64,000 nucleotides of DNA from Thiospirochaeta perfilievii. GTDB lineage: Bacteria > Spirochaetota > Spirochaetia > DSM-2461. Shown here piece after piece: positions 45,391 to 56,698 of this stretch. The stretch lies in NCBI RefSeq assembly GCF_008329945.1, contig NZ_CP035807.1:2728001-2792000 (forward strand), read 5' to 3'. The notes under the pieces were generated by a model. It was not told the origin of the DNA and searched no databases. It worked only from the letters and a program-made list of their open reading frames with translations. Position 1 is the stretch's first letter, and the number at the start of each line of letters is the position of its first letter. Both the position numbers and the translations under genes were made by a program.

Positions 45391-46676
45391 CTATCATAGC
45401 TGTCCAAAACAAAAAAACTACAATTTAAGTATTTTATAAAAGTAATCTCCAAGGTATAATCTAAGTACCACACAAAGCACACACAAGGAGATTACTATGA
45501 GTTTTCATGATACTATTTTTCGACAAATACTACAATTAATTCCGAGATATGAATTTGAAAAAATTGTAAAATCAGAAAAAGGAGACTTCGCGAATAAAGG
45601 ATTTTCCTGTTGGAACCAGTTTTCAGCAATGCTATTTGCTCAATTAAGCGGACAAACAGGTCTAAGGGGAATTGAGAACGGTTTAGAGCTTCAAAGTAAA
45701 AAGCTGTATCATTTAGGGATATCCAAAACTAAACGCTCAACGCTCTCTTATGCAAATAATAATCGTCCAAATGAGATCTATGAAAAACTATTTTACTCTT
45801 TATTATCAAAGCTTCATAGTAAACATAAAAATCATAAATTTAGATTTAAAAACCCACTTTATAGCGTAGATGCGAGTACTATAGATCTTTGTCTGAGCAT
45901 GTTTGATTGGGCTCATTTTAGGAAAAAGAAGGGAGGAATTAAACTCCATGTGACATTAGATCATTCCAGTTATATTCCCTCATTTGTTACTGTGACGGAT
46001 GCAAAAGTACATGAATCTAATGAAATTAAAAATGTTCCTTTTAAAAAAGATGATGTTATTGTTTTTGATAGAGGGTATACCGATTACCAATATTATTCAG
46101 ATTTAGGTGAAGAAGGTATTTATTTTGTTACAAGACTGAAGAAAAATGCCAAATATTCTGTGCTTGACGATAAAGACGTTTCAAAGTATGAAAATATACT
46201 GTCTGAAAAAATCATAGTTTTTGATAAAATAATATCTAAGAAAGGAAAGCCTCTAAAACTGCGGCTTGTTGAAAGTTATGATCCTGATTTGAAGAAAAGT
46301 ATAACACTAATTACAAATCACTTTTCATGGTCCCCCAGAACTATTTCAGCAATATATAAAGATAGATGGCAAATTGAAATTTTCTTCAAAACAATTAAGC
46401 AAAACCTAAAAATTAAAAGCTTTTTAGGAACAAGTCGAAATGCGGTTCTAACTCAAGTTTGGATCGTTATGATTTCGTTTCTGATATTGAAATATATGGA
46501 ATTTCAATCTACTTTAGGTTGGACTGTATCTTCAATAATGGCTATATTATCTACGATATTATTTGCAAATCTAAACTTAATTGATTGGTTAACAGTCCCG
46601 CCTGATAAACAAGCTCCACAGAAAAGTTATCTGCTACAAAAGGAGTTGTTTTGATTGTATTGGACAGCTATGATAG
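45391..46676 (+). mobile_element. IS4-family insertion sequence with inverted ends
   Basis: CTATCATAGCTGTCCA at 45391-45406 and its complement at 46661-46676 form perfect 16-bp inverted repeats; five more bases match outside after one mismatch. Inside is one full transposase. No clear target duplication is seen. The region 45159-45390 to its left is very AT-rich and I see no gene in it. Confidence 0.85.
45497..46654 (+). CDS. IS4-family DDE transposase
   Basis: 385 aa. The DDE triad is visible: Asp in YSVDASTIDL, Asp in VIVFDRGYTDY, and Glu in the YREK motif (YKDRWQIEIFFKTIK). N-terminal FANKGFSCWNQFSAMLFAQL matches the DUF4372 domain common in this IS4 subgroup. The frame is intact and an AAGGAG ribosome site precedes the ATG, so the element may be functional. 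Confidence 0.92.
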   Translation: MSFHDTIFRQILQLIPRYEFEKIVKSEKGDFANKGFSCWNQFSAMLFAQLSGQTGLRGIENGLELQSKKLYHLGISKTKRSTLSYANNNRPNEIYEKLFYSLLSKLHSKHKNHKFRFKNPLYSVDASTIDLCLSMFDWAHFRKKKGGIKLHVTLDHSSYIPSFVTVTDAKVHESNEIKNVPFKKDDVIVFDRGYTDYQYYSDLGEEGIYFVTRLKKNAKYSVLDDKDVSKYENILSEKIIVFDKIISKKGKPLKLRLVESYDPDLKKSITLITNHFSWSPRTISAIYKDRWQIEIFFKTIKQNLKIKSFLGTSRNAVLTQVWIVMISFLILKYMEFQSTLGWTVSSIMAILSTILFANLNLIDWLTVPPDKQAPQKSYLLQKELF

Positions 46677-46777: not shown

Positions 46778-48349
46778 ATGAAAAATCTACCTATTGGTAT
46801 AAGTAATCTAAACATGATAATAGAAAATAATCTTGTTTATGTAGATAAAACAGAAATTGCTTATAATTTAATTAAATCTCCTGGGCGTTATTTTTTATCT
46901 AGGCCTAGACGTTTTGGTAAATCCCTGTTCCTGGATACTTTAAAGGAGATATTTGAAGGTAATAAAGATCTTTTTAAAGGCCTTTTTATTTACGACAATT
47001 GGGACTGGGACAAAAAATATCCTGTTATAAAAATTGATTTTGCAGGTGGTTCTGTAAAGAACATTAAAGATCTTAATAATAAAATCCAGGCAAATATTAA
47101 CCATTATAAAAACCTGTATAATATCCAGTTAAATGAAACAGGTATATCCAATCAATTTAATGAATTAATATTCAAAATTCAGGATAAATTCTCATCTAAG
47201 GTTGTTGTACTAATTGATGAATATGATAAACCTCTTTTAGATAATATAGAAAATCCTGAAATGGCAATGGAAATTAGGGAAGGCTTAAAGAATTTTTATT
47301 CTGTATTTAAAGAACAGGATGCTAATATTCAGTTTGTATTTTTAACTGGTGTTAGTAAATTCAGTAAAGTTAATATCTTTTCTGGAATTAATAACCTTGA
47401 GGATATTACACTTAATAAAGATTATGCAACAATTTGTGGCTATACTCAAAATGATCTAGAAGTTTACTTTAAGGAACATCTTGAAGGGGTTGATAGGGAA
47501 CTACTAAAAAACTGGTATAACGGTTATAATTTTCTAGGCAATGGGTATGCATCTGCTGTATATAATCCCTTTGATATATTACTTTTTCTAAGTAATGGTA
47601 AGACCTACAGAAATTACTGGTTTGAAACAGAGACACCCACTTTTTTAATTAAATTACTCAAAAAAAACAATTATTTTTTACCTGACTTATCTAATGTTGA
47701 AGTTGGAGAAGAAATATTAAGTTCCTTCGAAATTGATTCGATATCAATTATAACTTTACTTTTCCAAACTGGGTATTTAACTATTGATAGTGTTGATGAT
47801 AGTATGGGAAAACAGTTTTATAGTCTAAAAATACCTAATAATGAGGTAAAAATAGCCTTAAATGATTATATAATTACTGCTTACACCGATCTTAATGAGC
47901 AAAAAACTCCGATACAAAAAAGTACTTTTAGTGCCTTAAAAAGTGGGGATTTTAAAAGCCTTGAAAAAACGATAATTAGACTTTTTGCAGGGATTCCATA
48001 CCGAAACTTTACAAAAAACAAGATGTATGAATACGAGGGTTATTATGCCTCTGTTCTCTATGCCTTCTTCTCTGCTATAAACTGTGATGTAATACCTGAG
48101 GATATTACAAACCATGGACAAGTAGATATGACTATTAAACTTGGTAGTACTATTTGTGTTATGGAGATTAAAACCACTACTAATTTTGAACCAAATTCCC
48201 AAAACCTTGCCCTAAAGCAAATACAGGATATGGATTACGCTAAAAAGTACCTAGGAATAACGAACACCACCACAGTCTATGAACTAGGCCTAGTCTTTGA
48301 TATGGATAAACGAAACTTGGTTCAGTTTGATTGGAGAATAAGAAGATGA
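46778..48349 (+). CDS. AAA-ATPase-like/PD-(D/E)XK nuclease-like protein, copy 1
   Basis: 523 aa. N-terminal AAA-ATPase_like domain with Walker A-like RPRRFGKS (residues 42-49) and Walker B LIDEYD (145-150). C-terminal PDDEXK_9-like domain with Asp450 (QVDMTI) and Glu463-x-Lys465 (MEIK). The family (AAA-ATPase_like plus PDDEXK_9) is widely expanded in anaerobes and has no established function. By segments, this copy has the NLNMIIEN type of N-terminus, type A middle (92-138) and type alpha C-terminal middle (293-402). It leads a five-gene operon directly downstream of the IS4 element; stop and next start overlap as ATGA. Confidence 0.9.
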   Translation: MKNLPIGISNLNMIIENNLVYVDKTEIAYNLIKSPGRYFLSRPRRFGKSLFLDTLKEIFEGNKDLFKGLFIYDNWDWDKKYPVIKIDFAGGSVKNIKDLNNKIQANINHYKNLYNIQLNETGISNQFNELIFKIQDKFSSKVVVLIDEYDKPLLDNIENPEMAMEIREGLKNFYSVFKEQDANIQFVFLTGVSKFSKVNIFSGINNLEDITLNKDYATICGYTQNDLEVYFKEHLEGVDRELLKNWYNGYNFLGNGYASAVYNPFDILLFLSNGKTYRNYWFETETPTFLIKLLKKNNYFLPDLSNVEVGEEILSSFEIDSISIITLLFQTGYLTIDSVDDSMGKQFYSLKIPNNEVKIALNDYIITAYTDLNEQKTPIQKSTFSALKSGDFKSLEKTIIRLFAGIPYRNFTKNKMYEYEGYYASVLYAFFSAINCDVIPEDITNHGQVDMTIKLGSTICVMEIKTTTNFEPNSQNLALKQIQDMDYAKKYLGITNTTTVYELGLVFDMDKRNLVQFDWRIRR

Positions 48350-49914
48350 AAAACCTACCTGTTGGGATAAGTACATTATCTAAATTGCTAGAAAACAATA
48401 TGGTTTATGTCGATAAAACAGAAATTGCATACAAACTTATACATAAAGCTGGAGCATATTTTTTATCTAGGCCTAGAAGATTTGGTAAATCTTTGTTCCT
48501 AGATACTTTAAAGGAGATATTTGAAGGTAATAAAGATCTATTTAAAGGTCTTTTTATTTACGATAATTGGGACTGGAATAAAAAATATCCTGTTATTAAA
48601 ATTGATTTTGCAGGTGGTTCTGTAAAGAACATTAAAGATCTTAATAATAAAATCCAGGCAAATATTAACCATTATAAAAACCTGTATAATATCCAGCTAA
48701 ATGAAACAGGTATATCCAATCAATTTAATGAAGTAATATTCAAAATTCAGGATAAATTCTCATCTAAGGTTGTTATTCTAATTGATGAATATGATAAACC
48801 CTTACTTGATAATATCGAAAATCCTGAAATGGCAATGGAAATTAGGGAAGGCTTAAAGAATTTTTATTCTGTAATTAAAGAACAGGATGCTAATATTCAG
48901 TTTGTATTTTTAACTGGTGTTAGTAAATTCAGTAAGGTAAATATTTTTTCCGGTATTAATAACCTTGAGGATATTACACTTAATAAAGATTATGCAACAA
49001 TTTGTGGCTATACTCAAAATGATCTAGAAGTTTACTTTAAGGAACACCTTGAAGGGGTTGATAGGGAACTACTAAAAAAATGGTATAACGGTTATAATTT
49101 TTTAGGCAATGTGCATACATCTGCTGTATATAATCCCTTTGATATATTACTTTTTCTAAGTAATGGTAAGACCTACAGAAATTACTGGTTTGAAACAGGA
49201 ACTCCTACCTTTCTAATTAAACTGTTCCAAAAAAACAATTATTTTCTACCTGATCTTAATGACATAGAAGTTGGAGAAGAAATACTTAGTTCCTTTGACA
49301 TTGATAATATTGAACCTACAACCCTACTGTTTCAATCTGGTTATTTAACTATAAAGGAAGTAACCACTGTTATGGGAAGGTTAAAATTTAAGTTACAGTT
49401 TCCAAATTTCGAAGTAAAAACATCATTTAATGAATACCTTATAAATGGTTATACTTTTTATACCACCCAGAAGATGAAATTAGAGGAATCCATATATAAT
49501 TCTTTACAAAGTGGCTCCTTTGATACACTAGAAAAAACTATATCCCGTATTTTTGCAGGGATTCCATACCGAAACTTTACAAAAAACAAGATGTATGAAT
49601 ACGAGGGTTATTATGCTTCTGTTCTCTATGCCTTCTTCTCTGCTATAAACTGTGATGTAATACCTGAGGATATAACAAACCATGGACAAGTAGATATGAC
49701 TATTAAACTTGGTGACACTATTTGTGTTATGGAGATTAAAACCACTACTAATTTTGAACCAAATTCCCAAAACCTTGCCCTAAAGCAAATACAGGATATG
49801 GATTACGCTAGAAAGTACCTAGGAATAACGAACACCAAAGTCTATGAACTAGGCCTAGTCTTTGATATGGATAAACGAAATTTGGTTCAGTTTGATTGGA
49901 GAATAAGAAGATGA
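48346..49914 (+). CDS. AAA-ATPase-like/PD-(D/E)XK nuclease-like protein, copy 2
   Basis: 522 aa from the ATG overlapping the previous stop; the frame reaches back to 48331, but MKNLPVG matches the start of copy 1. Walker A, Walker B and the D/ExK nuclease motif are intact. Segment types: N-terminus TLSKLLEN with IHKAGAY, middle type A, C-terminal middle type beta (LNDIEVGEEILSSFDID, VMGRLKFKLQ). It also has VHTSA at about residue 257 where copy 1 has GYASA. Confidence 0.9.
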   Translation: MKNLPVGISTLSKLLENNMVYVDKTEIAYKLIHKAGAYFLSRPRRFGKSLFLDTLKEIFEGNKDLFKGLFIYDNWDWNKKYPVIKIDFAGGSVKNIKDLNNKIQANINHYKNLYNIQLNETGISNQFNEVIFKIQDKFSSKVVILIDEYDKPLLDNIENPEMAMEIREGLKNFYSVIKEQDANIQFVFLTGVSKFSKVNIFSGINNLEDITLNKDYATICGYTQNDLEVYFKEHLEGVDRELLKKWYNGYNFLGNVHTSAVYNPFDILLFLSNGKTYRNYWFETGTPTFLIKLFQKNNYFLPDLNDIEVGEEILSSFDIDNIEPTTLLFQSGYLTIKEVTTVMGRLKFKLQFPNFEVKTSFNEYLINGYTFYTTQKMKLEESIYNSLQSGSFDTLEKTISRIFAGIPYRNFTKNKMYEYEGYYASVLYAFFSAINCDVIPEDITNHGQVDMTIKLGDTICVMEIKTTTNFEPNSQNLALKQIQDMDYARKYLGITNTKVYELGLVFDMDKRNLVQFDWRIRR

Positions 49915-51479
49915 AAAACCTACCTGTTGGGATAAGTACATTATCTAAATTGCTAGAAAACAATATGGTTTATGTCGATAAAACAGAAATTGCATACAAA
50001 CTTATACATAAAGCTGGAGCATATTTTTTATCTAGACCCAGAAGATTTGGTAAATCTTTGTTCCTTGATACTTTAAAGGAGATATTTGAAGGTAATAAAG
50101 ATCTATTTAAAGGTCTTTTTATTTATAATAATTGGGACTGGGACAAAAAATATCCTGTTATAAAAATTGATTTTGCAGGTGGTTCTGTAAAGAACATTAA
50201 AGATCTTAATAATAAAATCCAGGCAAATATTAACCATTATAAAAACCTGTATAATATCCAGTTAAATGAAACAGGTATATCCAATCAATTTAATGAATTA
50301 ATATTCAAAATTCAGGATAAATTCTCATCTAAGGTTGTTGTACTAATTGATGAATATGATAAACCTCTTTTAGATAATATAGAAAATCCTGAAATGGCAA
50401 TGGAAATTAGGGAAGGCTTAAAGAATTTTTATTCTATATTTAAAGAACAGGATGCTAATATTCAGTTTGTATTTTTAACAGGTGTTAGTAAATTCAGTAA
50501 AGTTAATATCTTTTCTGGAATTAATAACCTTGAGGATATTACACTTAATAAAGATTATGCAACAATTTGTGGCTATACTCAAAATGATCTAGAAGTTTAC
50601 TTTAAGGAACATCTTGAAGGGGTTGATAGGGAACTACTAAAAAACTGGTATAACGGTTATAATTTTCTAGGCAATGGGTATGCATCTGCTGTATATAATC
50701 CCTTTGATATATTACTTTTTCTAAGTAATGGTAAGACCTACAGAAATTACTGGTTTGAAACAGGGACACCAACTTTTTTAATTAAATTACTCAAAAAAAA
50801 CAATTATTTTTTACCTGACTTATCTAATGTTGAAGTTGGAGAAGAAATATTAAGTTCCTTCGAAATTGATTCGATATCAATTATAACCTTACTTTTCCAA
50901 ACTGGGTATTTAACTATTGATAGTGTTGATGATAGTATGGGAAAACAGTTTTATAGTCTAAAAATACCTAATAATGAGGTAAAAATAGCCTTAAATGATT
51001 ATATAATTACTGCTTACACCGATCTTAATGAGCAAAAAACTCCGATACAAAAAAGTACTTTTAGTGCCTTAAAAAGTGGGGATTTTAAAAGCCTTGAAAA
51101 AACGATAATTAGACTTTTTGCAGGGATTCCATACCGAAACTTTACAAAAAATAAGATGTATGAATACGAGGGTTATTATGCCTCTGTTCTCTATGCCTTC
51201 TTCTCTGCTATAAACTGTGATGTAATACCTGAGGATATAACAAACCATGGACAAGTCGATATGACTATTAAACTTGGTAGTACTATTTGTGTTATGGAGA
51301 TTAAAACCACTACTAATTTTGAACCAAATTCCCAAAACCTTGCCCTAAAACAAATACAGGATATGGATTACGCTAAAAAGTACCTAGGAATAACGAACAC
51401 ATCTGTTTATGAACTAGGCCTAGTCTTTGATATGGATAAACGAAACTTGGTTCAGTTTGATTGGAGAATAAAAAGATGA
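49911..51479 (+). CDS. AAA-ATPase-like/PD-(D/E)XK nuclease-like protein, copy 3
   Basis: 522 aa, start overlapping the copy 2 stop by 4 nt. Motifs are intact. It is a hybrid: N-terminus as in copy 2 (TLSKLLEN), middle type A, and the GYASA and type alpha C-terminal middle as in copy 1 (SVDDSMGKQFYSLK). The nucleotide identity to copy 1 in its second two-thirds is nearly complete, which points to recent recombination or duplication. Confidence 0.9.
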   Translation: MKNLPVGISTLSKLLENNMVYVDKTEIAYKLIHKAGAYFLSRPRRFGKSLFLDTLKEIFEGNKDLFKGLFIYNNWDWDKKYPVIKIDFAGGSVKNIKDLNNKIQANINHYKNLYNIQLNETGISNQFNELIFKIQDKFSSKVVVLIDEYDKPLLDNIENPEMAMEIREGLKNFYSIFKEQDANIQFVFLTGVSKFSKVNIFSGINNLEDITLNKDYATICGYTQNDLEVYFKEHLEGVDRELLKNWYNGYNFLGNGYASAVYNPFDILLFLSNGKTYRNYWFETGTPTFLIKLLKKNNYFLPDLSNVEVGEEILSSFEIDSISIITLLFQTGYLTIDSVDDSMGKQFYSLKIPNNEVKIALNDYIITAYTDLNEQKTPIQKSTFSALKSGDFKSLEKTIIRLFAGIPYRNFTKNKMYEYEGYYASVLYAFFSAINCDVIPEDITNHGQVDMTIKLGSTICVMEIKTTTNFEPNSQNLALKQIQDMDYAKKYLGITNTSVYELGLVFDMDKRNLVQFDWRIKR

Positions 51480-53044
51480 AAAACCTACCTATTGGAATAA
51501 GTAATCTAAGTATGATAATAGAAAATGATCTGGTCTATGTAGATAAAACAGAGACCGCTTTTAAATTAATTAAATCTCCAGGACGTTTTTTTCTATCTAG
51601 ACCCAGACGTTTTGGTAAATCTTTATTCCTTGATACTTTAAAGGAGATATTTGAAGGTAATAAAGATCTTTTTAAAGGCCTTTTTATTTACGACAATTGG
51701 GACTGGGACAAAAAATATCCTGTTATAAAAATTGATTTTGCAGGTGGTTCTGTAAAGAACAGTAAAGATCTTAATAATAAAATCCAGGCAAATATTAACC
51801 ATTATAAAAACCTGTATAATATCCAGTTAAATGAAACAGGTATATCCAATCAATTTAATGAATTAATATTCAAAATTCAGGATAAATTCTCATCTAAGGT
51901 TGTTATTCTAATTGATGAATATGATAAACCCTTACTTGATAATATCGAAAATCCTGAAATGGCAATGGAAATTAGGGAAGGCTTAAAGAATTTTTATTCT
52001 GTAATTAAAGAACAAGATACTAATATTCAGTTTGTATTTTTAACTGGTGTTAGTAAATTCAGTAAGGTAAATATTTTTTCCGGTATTAATAACCTTGAGG
52101 ATATTACACTTAATAAAGATTATGCAACAATTTGTGGCTATACTCAAAATGATCTAGAAGTTTACTTTAAGGAACATCTTGAAGGGGTTGATAGGGAACT
52201 ACTAAAAAACTGGTATAACGGTTATAATTTTTTAGGCAATGGGTATGCATCTGCTGTATATAATCCCTTTGATATATTACTTTTTCTAAGTAATGGTAAG
52301 ACCTACAGAAATTACTGGTTTGAAACAGGAACTCCTACCTTTCTAATTAAACTGTTCCAAAAAAACAATTATTTTCTACCTGATCTTAATGACATAGAAG
52401 TGGGAGAAGAAATACTTAGTTCCTTTGACATTGATAATATTGAACCTACAACCCTACTGTTTCAATCTGGTTATTTAACTATAAAAGAAGTCACAACTGT
52501 TATGGGAAGGTTAAAATTTAAGTTACAGTTTCCAAATTTCGAAGTAAAAACATCATTTAATGAATACCTTATAAATGGTTATACTTTTTATACCACCCAG
52601 AAGATGAAATTAGAGGAATCCATATATAATTCTTTACAAAGTGGCTCCTTTGATACACTAGAAAAAACTATATCCCGTATTTTTGCAGGGATTCCATACC
52701 GAAACTTTACAAAAAACAAGATGTATGAATACGAGGGTTATTATGCCTCTGTTCTCTATGCCTTCTTCTCTGCTATAAACTGCCATGTAATACCTGAGGA
52801 TATTACAAACCACGGCCAAGTAGATATGACTATTAAACTTGGTGACACTATTTGTGTTATGGAGATTAAAACCACTACTAATTTTGAACCAAATTCCCAA
52901 AACCTTGCCCTAAAGCAAATTCAGGATATGGATTACGCTAAAAAGTACCTAGGAATAACGAACACATCTGTTTATGAACTAGGCCTAGTCTTTGATATGG
53001 ATAAAAGAAATTTGGTTCAGTTTGATTGGAGAATAAGAAGATGA
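51476..53044 (+). CDS. AAA-ATPase-like/PD-(D/E)XK nuclease-like protein, copy 4
   Basis: 522 aa, start overlapping the copy 3 stop. Motifs are intact. Another hybrid: N-terminus of copy-1 type (NLSMIIEN, IKSPGRF), middle type A, GYASA, then type beta C-terminal middle as in copy 2. A few private changes include NCHVIP for NCDVIP ahead of the nuclease motif. Confidence 0.9.
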   Translation: MKNLPIGISNLSMIIENDLVYVDKTETAFKLIKSPGRFFLSRPRRFGKSLFLDTLKEIFEGNKDLFKGLFIYDNWDWDKKYPVIKIDFAGGSVKNSKDLNNKIQANINHYKNLYNIQLNETGISNQFNELIFKIQDKFSSKVVILIDEYDKPLLDNIENPEMAMEIREGLKNFYSVIKEQDTNIQFVFLTGVSKFSKVNIFSGINNLEDITLNKDYATICGYTQNDLEVYFKEHLEGVDRELLKNWYNGYNFLGNGYASAVYNPFDILLFLSNGKTYRNYWFETGTPTFLIKLFQKNNYFLPDLNDIEVGEEILSSFDIDNIEPTTLLFQSGYLTIKEVTTVMGRLKFKLQFPNFEVKTSFNEYLINGYTFYTTQKMKLEESIYNSLQSGSFDTLEKTISRIFAGIPYRNFTKNKMYEYEGYYASVLYAFFSAINCHVIPEDITNHGQVDMTIKLGDTICVMEIKTTTNFEPNSQNLALKQIQDMDYAKKYLGITNTSVYELGLVFDMDKRNLVQFDWRIRR

Positions 53045-54612
53045 AAAACCTACCTGTTGGGATAAGTACATTATCTAAATTGCTAGAAAACAATATGGTT
53101 TATGTCGATAAAACAGAAATTGCATACAAACTTATACATAAAGCTGGAGCATATTTTTTATCTAGGCCTAGAAGATTTGGTAAATCTTTATTCCTGGATA
53201 CTTTAAAGGAGATATTTGAAGGTAATAAAGATCTTTTTAAAGGCCTTTTTATTTATAATAATTGGGACTGGGACAAAAAATATCCTGTTATAAAAATTGA
53301 TTTTGCAGGTGGTTTTGTAAGAAATAGAGATGAACTTGATGTAATACTTAAAGAAAAATTTAATGCTATTAAAAAATATCATAATATTTCTATAGAATCT
53401 GAAACTGTTTCAGGTATATTCAGTGAGACAATTGGATCTCTTGCATCTAAATATTCTTCTAAAGTTGTTATTCTAATTGATGAATATGATAAACCCTTAC
53501 TTGATAACATTGAAAATCCTGAAATGGCAATGGAAATTCGTGATGGATTAAAAAGCTTTTATTCTGTAATTAAAGAACAAGATACTAATATTCAGTTTGT
53601 ATTTTTAACAGGTGTTAGTAAATTCAGTAAAGTTAATATCTTTTCTGGAATTAATAACCTTGAGGATATTACACTTAATAAAGATTATGCAACAATTTGT
53701 GGCTATACTCAAAATGATCTAGAAGTTTACTTCAAGGAACACCTTGAGGGTGTTGATAGGGAACTACTAAAAAACTGGTATAACGGTTATAATTTTTTAG
53801 GCAATGTGCATACATCTGCTGTATACAACCCCTTTGATATCCTACTTTTTATTAGTAATAATAGAAGTTACAGAAATTACTGGTTTGAAACAGGGACTCC
53901 TACTTTTCTAATTAAACTATTCCAAAAAAACAATTATTTTCTACCTGATCTTAATGACATAGAAGTGGGAGAAGAAATACTTAGTTCCTTTGACATTGAT
54001 AATATTGAACCGACAGCCCTACTTTTTCAGTCAGGGTATTTAACTATAAAAGAAGTCACAACTGTTATGGGAAGGCTAAAATTTAAGTTACAGTTTCCAA
54101 ATTTCGAAGTAAAAACATCATTTAATGAATACCTTATAAATGGTTATACTTTTTATACTACCCAGAAGATGAAATTAGAGGAATCCATATATAATTCTTT
54201 ACAAAGTGGCTCCTTTGATACACTAGAAAAAACTATAACTCGGATTTTTGCAGGGATCCCATACCGAAACTTTACAAAAAACAAGATGTATGAATACGAG
54301 GGTTATTATGCCTCTGTTCTCTATGCCTTCTTCTCTGCTATAAACTGCGATGTAATCCCCGAGGATATAACAAACCACGGCCAAGCTGATATGACTATTA
54401 AACTTGGTAACACCATTTGTGTTATGGAGATTAAAACCACTACTAATTTTGAACCAAATTCCCAAAACCTTGCATTAAAGCAAATACAAGATATGGATTA
54501 CGCTAAAAAGTACCTAGGAATAACGAACACCACTATCTATGAACTAGGCCTAGTCTTTGATATGGATAAAAGAAACCTTGTACAGTTTGATTGGAATGTA
54601 AGGGGGAATTAG
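53041..54612 (+). CDS. AAA-ATPase-like/PD-(D/E)XK nuclease-like protein, copy 5
   Basis: 523 aa, last gene of the operon. N-terminus of copy-2 type, but residues ~92-138 are of a different type (B: FVRNRDELDVILKEKF, SGIFSETIGSLASKY), seen in no other copy. VHTSA and type beta follow; the catalytic region reads QADMTI where the others have QVDMTI. The 157 bp after the stop hold only a short open tail (54616-54714) and a terminator. Confidence 0.9.
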   Translation: MKNLPVGISTLSKLLENNMVYVDKTEIAYKLIHKAGAYFLSRPRRFGKSLFLDTLKEIFEGNKDLFKGLFIYNNWDWDKKYPVIKIDFAGGFVRNRDELDVILKEKFNAIKKYHNISIESETVSGIFSETIGSLASKYSSKVVILIDEYDKPLLDNIENPEMAMEIRDGLKSFYSVIKEQDTNIQFVFLTGVSKFSKVNIFSGINNLEDITLNKDYATICGYTQNDLEVYFKEHLEGVDRELLKNWYNGYNFLGNVHTSAVYNPFDILLFISNNRSYRNYWFETGTPTFLIKLFQKNNYFLPDLNDIEVGEEILSSFDIDNIEPTALLFQSGYLTIKEVTTVMGRLKFKLQFPNFEVKTSFNEYLINGYTFYTTQKMKLEESIYNSLQSGSFDTLEKTITRIFAGIPYRNFTKNKMYEYEGYYASVLYAFFSAINCDVIPEDITNHGQADMTIKLGNTICVMEIKTTTNFEPNSQNLALKQIQDMDYAKKYLGITNTTIYELGLVFDMDKRNLVQFDWNVRGN

Positions 54613-54726: not shown

Positions 54727-54746
54727 AGGGGGGGCAAAAGCCCCCT
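54727..54746. terminator. GC-rich hairpin between convergent genes
   Basis: GGGGGC-AAAA-GCCCCC hairpin (with flanking G/C) between the end of the AAA/PD-(D/E)XK operon and the end of the lipoprotein gene. The T-tracts are weak on both sides. Confidence 0.6.
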
Positions 54747-54769: not shown

Positions 54770-56698
54770 CTAAAAAGATTGAACAGCCCGAACCGGATAA
54801 TTTATGTTCTTAGGGTGGGAGCCCTGACCGCCAGTGACTAATGACTGGACCAACGCCAAGGAATCATTGTTCTCGGACGACGACCAATAGTAAACACCGG
54901 TAAACCCACCAACAGCTGCCTTGTTCAGATAAAGCTTATTTAACTCATCTTTTGACGCTAAATACCAATCATCATAAGTTACTCCATCCTCTACAGTTGA
55001 GTATTCATAACAAAGTCTGGCTGCATAACTTAATACGTTTCCCTGATTATTTACTATTGTTGTTGTATTTCCCTGGCCCGTTCCAAGTGCCGTTCCGGTT
55101 GCCCCGATTGCTATATCATGTTGGTGGGCCCATTGTATTCCAGTACTTAAGTCTGCTGTCGATGCAATAAGTCCGTGGGTTTCACCAGATACATACCCTG
55201 GATCACCAGATTGCAGAAAATATGCAATAATCCCTCCCTGAAATGGCATACCTACATAAGGAGCTCTATACACCACCACTGTCTTTGATAAAGTATTTAC
55301 TGTAACAGTTACATTTTCAGCATTTCCAACAGTAATATTTGAAATAGTTAGTGTTCTTGTAGCTCCTGTTCCAGTTAATGTACTTTTTGTTGCTCCTGTT
55401 AAGGTTATATCATCGACTGTAATTGCACCTGGATCAGTACTAAATGTTAGGGTTAAGCTAGCTGTATCTGTAGTTCCTGATACACCGTCATTTTGTGTTA
55501 CACTGTTAAGAGCAAGCCATTTAGGGTATAAAGTAACATTAGTACTTACCTGAGTAGATGATGTATACTCTGTTCCTCCACCATTAATTGCACTAAACCA
55601 ACCAACAAATACATACCCATCCCTAGTAGGGTTTGTTGGTAATGAAATTGTTCCGTTTGGTGCAATTTCTTGGGATGGAACAGTAGTTTCTTCACTAATA
55701 CTACCTCCATCTAGATTAAACTGCACAAGATAAGGGAAAGTTATAGGTCCTATTACATTACTTGGAGCGGAATCTCCAATACTATTGGAAGCTACTAGTC
55801 TAAAGTAAATTGTTGAACCTCTATTTTGAGTTATTATCATTGTTTGAGTTCCCCCATCGAAATCTATCCTGGGAGAAAAATCATCATTTTCAGAGAATGA
55901 GAAATCTAAACGGAATTTTTTCTCATTATTTGAGTTATCACTCCATGTTAATAAAAGTTTCCCTACATTTAGTTCTGTAGAAGGAGATAGTGTTCCTTGT
56001 AAGTTACTTGGTGCTATAGGTTTTTTATTAAAGTCATCTTCTGTAAGATTAATTGTTGATTTACTTATTAAGCCACACTCTATTTGAACAATATCTGTAT
56101 AGATGCATAAATCCTTATAGTTTTCATCTTGTAGGTATAGTGAAATTTTATATGTTCCCTTATCAAGGGTGTCATTTGTATAGTTAAATGTATTTGTAGC
56201 TATATCAACCTCTTCATCGTATATAATAGATATTGGTTCGGCTATTGTACCAAATCTCAAGTCATATTTTGCAACAGGTATTGTTGTTGGCCAGTTAAAA
56301 GTAATATCAACGGTACCTTTACTTGTAGTGTTACTATTAGTTATTGTAAAACTTAGGGTTACAGGGGAATCTCCAAGGACTTGGTCTGTTAAAGTGTTAC
56401 TACCAAATAAATTATCATCATTTTTAATAGCTTCAAGTTTAAACTCCCAGGTTCCTTTTTCTAGGGTAAGAACCGCTGTGGATAAATTTGTGTAAGTTCC
56501 AAGTAATTCTTCGGTCTCTCCGGTTTTATTTCCATATAATTTATACTCTTTAATATCTGCACTAGGCATAATTGTTCTTGAATTATCTAATGCAATAGTT
56601 ACATTAACTAAGTTGCTTTCTTCAGTTTGGAATAGATTACAACTGAATATCGATATTAATAATAACAATGAAGTTAGTATTTTTGTATGTATCTTCAT
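54770..56698 (-). CDS. Lipoprotein with InlB-type repeat and DUF1566-type C-terminal domain
   Basis: 642 aa. Lipoprotein signal with lipobox IFSC at Cys20. Then beta-rich repeats (~30-220), an FN3-like stretch (~230-320: APSNLQGTLSP, LLLTWSDNSNNEKKF), an InlB/Flg_new B-repeat (~325-395: DGYVFVGWFSA), an Ig-like region, and a C-terminal DUF1566/Lcl-type lectin-like domain (~480-642: GGIIAYFLQ, DDWYLASKDELNKLY, YYWSSSE, VRAVQSF). Surface-anchored, with a probable ligand-binding tip. The last ~35 codons look like a DGR variable region. The upstream gene is a second repeat-rich lipoprotein 13 nt away, probably in the same operon. Confidence 0.8.
   Translation of the reverse strand: MKIHTKILTSLLLLISIFSCNLFQTEESNLVNVTIALDNSRTIMPSADIKEYKLYGNKTGETEELLGTYTNLSTAVLTLEKGTWEFKLEAIKNDDNLFGSNTLTDQVLGDSPVTLSFTITNSNTTSKGTVDITFNWPTTIPVAKYDLRFGTIAEPISIIYDEEVDIATNTFNYTNDTLDKGTYKISLYLQDENYKDLCIYTDIVQIECGLISKSTINLTEDDFNKKPIAPSNLQGTLSPSTELNVGKLLLTWSDNSNNEKKFRLDFSFSENDDFSPRIDFDGGTQTMIITQNRGSTIYFRLVASNSIGDSAPSNVIGPITFPYLVQFNLDGGSISEETTVPSQEIAPNGTISLPTNPTRDGYVFVGWFSAINGGGTEYTSSTQVSTNVTLYPKWLALNSVTQNDGVSGTTDTASLTLTFSTDPGAITVDDITLTGATKSTLTGTGATRTLTISNITVGNAENVTVTVNTLSKTVVVYRAPYVGMPFQGGIIAYFLQSGDPGYVSGETHGLIASTADLSTGIQWAHQHDIAIGATGTALGTGQGNTTTIVNNQGNVLSYAARLCYEYSTVEDGVTYDDWYLASKDELNKLYLNKAAVGGFTGVYYWSSSENNDSLALVQSLVTGGQGSHPKNINYPVRAVQSF
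54776..54889 (-). other. Candidate variable region of a diversity-generating retroelement
   Basis: The last codons of the DUF1566-type domain. The fixed family positions YWSSSE, A, Q, G, Q, K and VRAV keep their usual spacing, while positions between them vary. Most variable codons end in C or T (GTC, ACT, GGC, TCC, CAC, CCT, AAC, AAT, TAT), as expected if AAC/AAT template codons were changed at A. GC content is clearly above the rest of the gene. No reverse transcriptase or template repeat is in the window. Confidence 0.45.

Follow-up and report, generated by a model that had tools for sequence, protein, structure and literature searches.

The window analysed here is a stretch of 64,000 nucleotides of the Thiospirochaeta perfilievii genome (C1:2728001-2792000), with a GC content of 33.6%. 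The genome consists of two contigs of 3.67 Mb and 32.8 kb and is rated 96.85% complete; the small contig (C2) appears to be a closed circle, its junction being spanned by an ORF, and neither C2 nor the C1 ends showed an N, the closure of C1 being unproven. On the minus strand of the window lies an ORF whose 642-aa product carries a lipobox-like ISIFSC, a Flg_new repeat (PF09479, 58 bits) and a C-terminal Lcl_C/DUF1566 domain (PF07603), the match to the latter being weak and divergent (28.5 bits against a cut-off of 34.9). The whole-protein Lcl model gave 35 of 500 bits, far under its cut-off, and the AlphaFold model of the C-terminal domain, with a mean pLDDT of 49.8, was too poor for use. The product is presumed to be a surface binding protein, and no match was obtained when phages were searched with its sequence. 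The first-pass annotation had proposed that the end of this gene (54776-54889) is the variable region (VR) of a DGR, and it implied a working system. A DGR (diversity-generating retroelement) is a genetic system dedicated to the deliberate mutation of one gene. The features discussed below, with their counterparts in two other Spirochaetota genomes (G194 and G314) where these carry a template (TR), are as follows:

54770..56698, minus strand: target gene, an ORF for a 642-aa putative lipoprotein (PF09479, 58 bits; PF07603, 28.5 bits)
54781..54907, minus strand: probable relic VR, 127 bp, in gapless alignment to the G194 TR, with 28/46 A and 11/81 non-A changed
54872..54886, minus strand: invariant block TGGTCGTCGTCCGAG, the same in the TRs of G194 and G314, with a single occurrence in the T. 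perfilievii genome
54781..54793, minus strand: 3' block GTTCGGGCTGTTC, identical in the TR and VR of G194, at the position expected of the putative IMH (initiation of mutagenic homing)
54730..54745, minus strand: GC hairpin GGGGGC-TTTT-GCCCCC, 24 bp past the gene end, no other of its class occurring in the 64 kb
46778..54612, plus strand: five tandem AAA-ATPase_like/PDDEXK_9 genes, on the side occupied by avd-TR-RT in G194

With regard to its composition, the segment is indeed GC-richer than its gene, as first noted (0.50 in 54776-54889 vs 0.36 for the whole gene), a value reached by only 0.33% of the 114-bp windows in the 64 kb, in six clusters. GC at third codon positions is 0.58 in the segment vs 0.05-0.37 in the remainder of the gene; the neighbouring stretch of the domain (55061-55202) is likewise GC-rich, and outside this VR-side domain the lipoprotein gene is low in GC like its surroundings. 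The first-pass annotation had also taken codons ending in C or T as a sign of template origin, a point that did not hold: their share in the segment is 0.58, ordinary for a gene whose own 38-codon windows span 0.37-0.71, and we dropped this excess as a VR mark because it is not distinctive. Since the C/T share of the segment is usual for the gene, composition alone could not settle the question; what decided it lay beyond the window, in the TRs of G194 and G314.

A DNA search of the T. perfilievii genome with the segment returned only the segment itself, the next match being 17 bp long, and no TR was found there, as the 15-mer TGGTCGTCGTCCGAG occurs once and a query with the G194 TR finds the VR alone. 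Three RVT_1 matches are present, namely the RT (maturase) of a group II intron (motif QGSILSP; TIGR04416, 331 bits), a defence RT of the UG39 type encoded by the small contig (motif QGGALSG), and an 87-aa fragment. None of the RTs in the genome is of the DGR type (GxPxGNxxSQ motif), and queries with BPP-1 Brt and with the G194 RT hit only the group II enzyme, although elsewhere in the class and phylum the same queries did retrieve real DGR RTs. The accessory protein Avd belongs to many DGRs but not to all; a query with the G194 bAvd gave nothing at E<=1 in this genome, in a search run without a positive control, and no remnant of avd, TR or RT is recognisable beside the lipoprotein gene. The locus is not a complete DGR, in that RT and TR were not found in the genome. 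A near-identical repeat next to a DGR RT was what the first-pass annotation had looked to for an active system, and our search of the genome yielded neither, the very outcome that it had named as speaking against one. The UG39 RT of the 33-kb circular contig (G000:C2, L003 575-2334) is apparently split into two reading frames, its N- and C-terminal parts matching PADLOC RT_UG39 separately. The paralogue at C1:1235952 (L025) was set aside, its DUF1566 tail being an ordinary one.

When 296 Spirochaetota genomes were scanned for TGGTCGTCGTCCGAG, three were positive: T. perfilievii (once), G314 (once), and G194 (twice, in TR and VR), the lineages of T. perfilievii and G194 being distant, with only the phylum in common. 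The DGR of G194 is complete (L116 6449-9027), in the order lipoprotein with VR, GC hairpin, bAvd (PF22296, 75.8 bits), TR and RT; the RT has the GLPIGNLTSQ motif and aligns to BPP-1 Brt with E=5e-39, and between its VR and its TR 19/46 adenines but just 1/81 other bases are changed, the pattern that a working DGR should give. This system and the T. perfilievii locus are alike in the TR backbone, in having a lipoprotein with C-terminal Lcl_C domain as target, and in the GC hairpin after the VR. They differ in that G194 has kept bAvd, TR and RT and shows a single non-A difference between VR and TR, and upstream of the VR the two targets share just 25% identity (aa). The G314 TR differs from that of G194 at 2/100 positions. 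The G314 TR (L117 / L130, G314:C63:5330-5460) is unmutated, AAC-rich and near a contig end; no DGR RT was found in G314, and this TR is possibly a stranded template.

Compared with the G194 TR over 127 bp without a gap, the T. perfilievii VR is changed at 28/46 template adenines vs 11/81 other bases (Fisher p=4.7e-8), that is, at A 28/46, C 6/29, G 5/29 and T 0/23. The concentration at adenines is also seen with the G314 TR as reference (p=1.9e-5), and there is no adenine signal if the T. perfilievii sequence is instead taken as the template (p=0.82). Some ordinary DUF1566 tails give p values of 0.002-0.05 against the same TR, because the TR adenines fall in loops, and one might hence see here an ordinary tail whose adenine bias comes from a conserved scaffold with variable loops. 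We compared the DUF1566 tails of 13 relatives with the G194 TR as controls, and these showed 20-49 non-A differences of 76 (26-64%) vs 14 of 76 (18%) in our segment, and 4-13 of 22 template T changed vs 0/22; since some of these tails could be old VRs in their own right, the comparison errs on the cautious side. Among amino acids shared with the G194 target, codons are identical in 15/16 cases inside the VR and in 9/30 upstream. Such agreement away from the template adenines (15/16 codons, all template T intact) exceeds anything seen in the 13 controls, and blocks of 15 and 13 bp identical to the TR stand inside a window of 33.6% GC, so that the ordinary-tail reading, already disfavoured, is hardly credible.

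The VR makes up the last 40-odd codons of the Lcl_C domain (a domain scoring under the curated cut-off), and it has a sharp boundary in an otherwise divergent target gene, codon identity falling from 15/16 inside to 9/30 outside. Upstream of it, the domain resembles a protein of G021 (49% aa) more than that of G194 (25% aa). Judged by the sequence comparison, such a TR-derived patch in a divergent target is a retrohoming footprint, and not ordinary homology or the transfer of a G194-like gene; the 13-bp 3' block GTTCGGGCTGTTC would then sit at the position expected of the IMH. The proposal of a DGR variable region with residues derived from template-adenine changes is strongly supported by the gapless match to the TRs of other spirochaetes, and the part of it that stands is a VR by descent, while the working DGR that it implied is not supported, with no second copy, bAvd or DGR RT found in the genome.

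Because the segment departs from a real TR specifically at adenines, has a sharp boundary, and lies in a genome where RT, TR and bAvd are absent, we consider it to be a genuine DGR variable region, left stranded and decaying after loss of the retroelement, with a probability of about 0.88, the evidence base being one genome per species. A DGR with a template nearly the same as that of G194 would have copied its TR by error-prone reverse transcription, the template adenines being randomised during copying, and the cDNA would have been pasted over the 3' end of the Lcl_C domain of the lipoprotein. The avd-TR-RT module would later have gone from the genome, and the last written variant would have been frozen, drifting A/T-ward like its host.

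The non-A differences are above the level of a working pair (11/81 here vs 1/81 between VR and TR of G194), and 9/11 of them run from G/C to A/T, template T being untouched (0/23 vs 11/58 for G/C, p=0.03). Among them are the changes TGG to TTG (Trp to Leu) and TTC to TTA (Phe to Leu) in the scaffold, so that the two leucines which the first-pass annotation had pointed out in place of Trp and Phe, and had attributed to non-A changes, are real. The A/T-ward direction fits drift in a low-GC host after overwriting stopped; the 11 differences may represent decay, or a slightly different cognate TR may explain some of them. It might be argued that the VR serves as a target even now and is being diversified in trans by a DGR of phage, plasmid or other mobile origin, which is absent from the assembly or visits only occasionally. 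Remote targets are in fact known for DGRs (PMC4891356), the 13-bp 3' block and the GC hairpin are retained, and phages and plasmids can carry DGR RTs, one IMG/VR contig having a relative of the G194 RT (58% identity). Against this, neither the chromosome nor the 33-kb circle has a TR or DGR RT, and the 11 non-A differences, with 9 A/T-ward, suggest no recent overwriting from a G194-like TR. The 15-mer had 22 matches in viral contigs, none coding for a DUF1566 tail, and the degenerate pattern of the cognate TR gave no match in viral contigs. Taken with the points in its favour, diversification in trans appears improbable.

If the segment is a stranded VR, the DGR could have been lost in this lineage or elsewhere. 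No intact DGR RT of the G194 kind was found in the 26 genomes of the family that were searched, and two further genera of this family have relics, which are VRs in g3 and, in g6, a broken RT. In G009 (same family, 99% complete) the target lipoprotein is G194-like and its VR belongs to the same lineage, and its flank tracks that of G194 for ~30 bp past the stop and diverges before the hairpin; the neighbourhood has neither avd, TR nor DGR RT, and the genome is without a DGR RT. In G004, also of the family, a VR fragment of the same lineage is changed at 31/46 A and 13/81 non-A (p=7e-9) and lies in no clear ORF, and no DGR RT was found. G007, of a sister genus, has a frameshifted DGR RT relic (GCGLPMGNLTSQVFANFYLDPF; L123, G007:C247:17115-17207), adjoining a PD-(D/E)XK-transposase-like gene. 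These findings suggest that DGRs have been lost more than once within this spirochaete family. The stranded-VR reading also has a variant, differing only in the place of loss, namely that the gene was acquired horizontally with its VR prewritten by a DGR of the donor, and that the T. perfilievii lineage never had one; the VR-side part of the domain is in fact GC-richer than the remaining gene, and DGRs move with their targets between spirochaetes. The rest of the gene, however, is low in GC like the surrounding window, and because of the relics in sister genera we lean to loss of the DGR in the T. perfilievii lineage rather than in a gene donor, horizontal acquisition being somewhat unlikely, if a good deal more plausible than diversification in trans.

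Elsewhere in the phylum, G408 (single contig, 99% complete) has two VR-like DUF1566 tails (L145 and L157; G408:C1:923346 and 616928) and no match to the G194 DGR RT, and these tails are likely further stranded variable regions. VR-like tails were also seen in G184, G146, G118, G097 and G374 (L141, L148, L143, L134 and L149, respectively), most of them sharing a second backbone, TGGAGTTCGTCTGAG...GTTCGGGCTGTCCGGGC, and no DGR RT was found in these five genomes. Such VR-like sequences in genomes without a DGR RT, G408 included, are leads held to a lower standard of testing than the T. perfilievii VR. In G014, which belongs to the family of T. perfilievii, an unusual SQ-motif RT (G014:C264, L063) has GLGSQVSQ and GRYMDD motifs; it is Brt-like (E=3e-22) and falls outside the GLPIGNLTSQ type.

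Legionella LdtA and Treponema TvpA are DGR surface lipoproteins with a C-terminal variable region, active with their own RT and TR. Our lipoprotein resembles them, by description and not by sequence, in being a putative surface lipoprotein with a C-terminal VR, and is unlike them in that theirs are active DGRs with RT and TR. Its domain family is that of the C-terminal domain of the Legionella collagen-like adhesin Lcl (PF07603; solved relative HbP1, 8q4e), and Lcl is not known as a DGR target. More generally, DUF1566 is a common DGR target (PMC4159848, PMC6642488). Left-over DGR target genes without RT and TR have been described in T. denticola isolates, their VRs differing from the TR of other strains mostly at adenines, which the authors read as incomplete DGR loss (PMC4891356). 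The T. perfilievii case is alike in these respects, with a VR present, RT and TR absent from the same genome, and differences mostly at adenines; it differs in that the TR is found in a distant spirochaete lineage and not in another strain of the species, and in having more non-A change and a DUF1566 target. Left-over DGR targets are thus already known, and our case adds another spirochaete family, recognised via the template of a distant relative. DGR catalogues are largely RT-centred, so that targets without an RT are easily missed, and our case shows that the footprint is enough to recognise a lost DGR, given a template that survives in a distant relative. The VR also provides an example of the fate of a hypervariable surface protein once its mutator is gone. 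One could go further and speculate that VR genes in Spirochaetota are standing docking sites, often outliving their retroelements and re-diversified by a passing mobile DGR with a matching template. We regard this as quite doubtful; if true, the DGR would be a visiting mutator and not a resident one.

As to the flanks, the hairpin at 54730-54745 resembles that of G194 in sequence and place, the G194 counterpart being ATTAGGGGGCTTGCCCCCTAAT. In published DGR hairpins (PMC3240598), located at a distance of 4-34 bp from the VR, a stem of 7-10 bp carries a 4-nt GRNA loop; in ours the stem is 6 bp long and the loop reads TTTT, and terminator scoring picks it up as well. It is either a candidate DGR target hairpin or simply a terminator, its features being only suggestive, and we dropped it as proof of a DGR, since it fits a terminator too and three other VR-bearing genomes have no such hairpin. 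There is no sign that the five tandem AAA-ATPase_like/PDDEXK_9 genes belong to a DGR. These genes are closely similar to one another and are mosaics of two alternative middle and C-terminal segments, which look as if shuffled by gene conversion, and a DDE transposase gene (45497-46654) lies directly upstream of the array.
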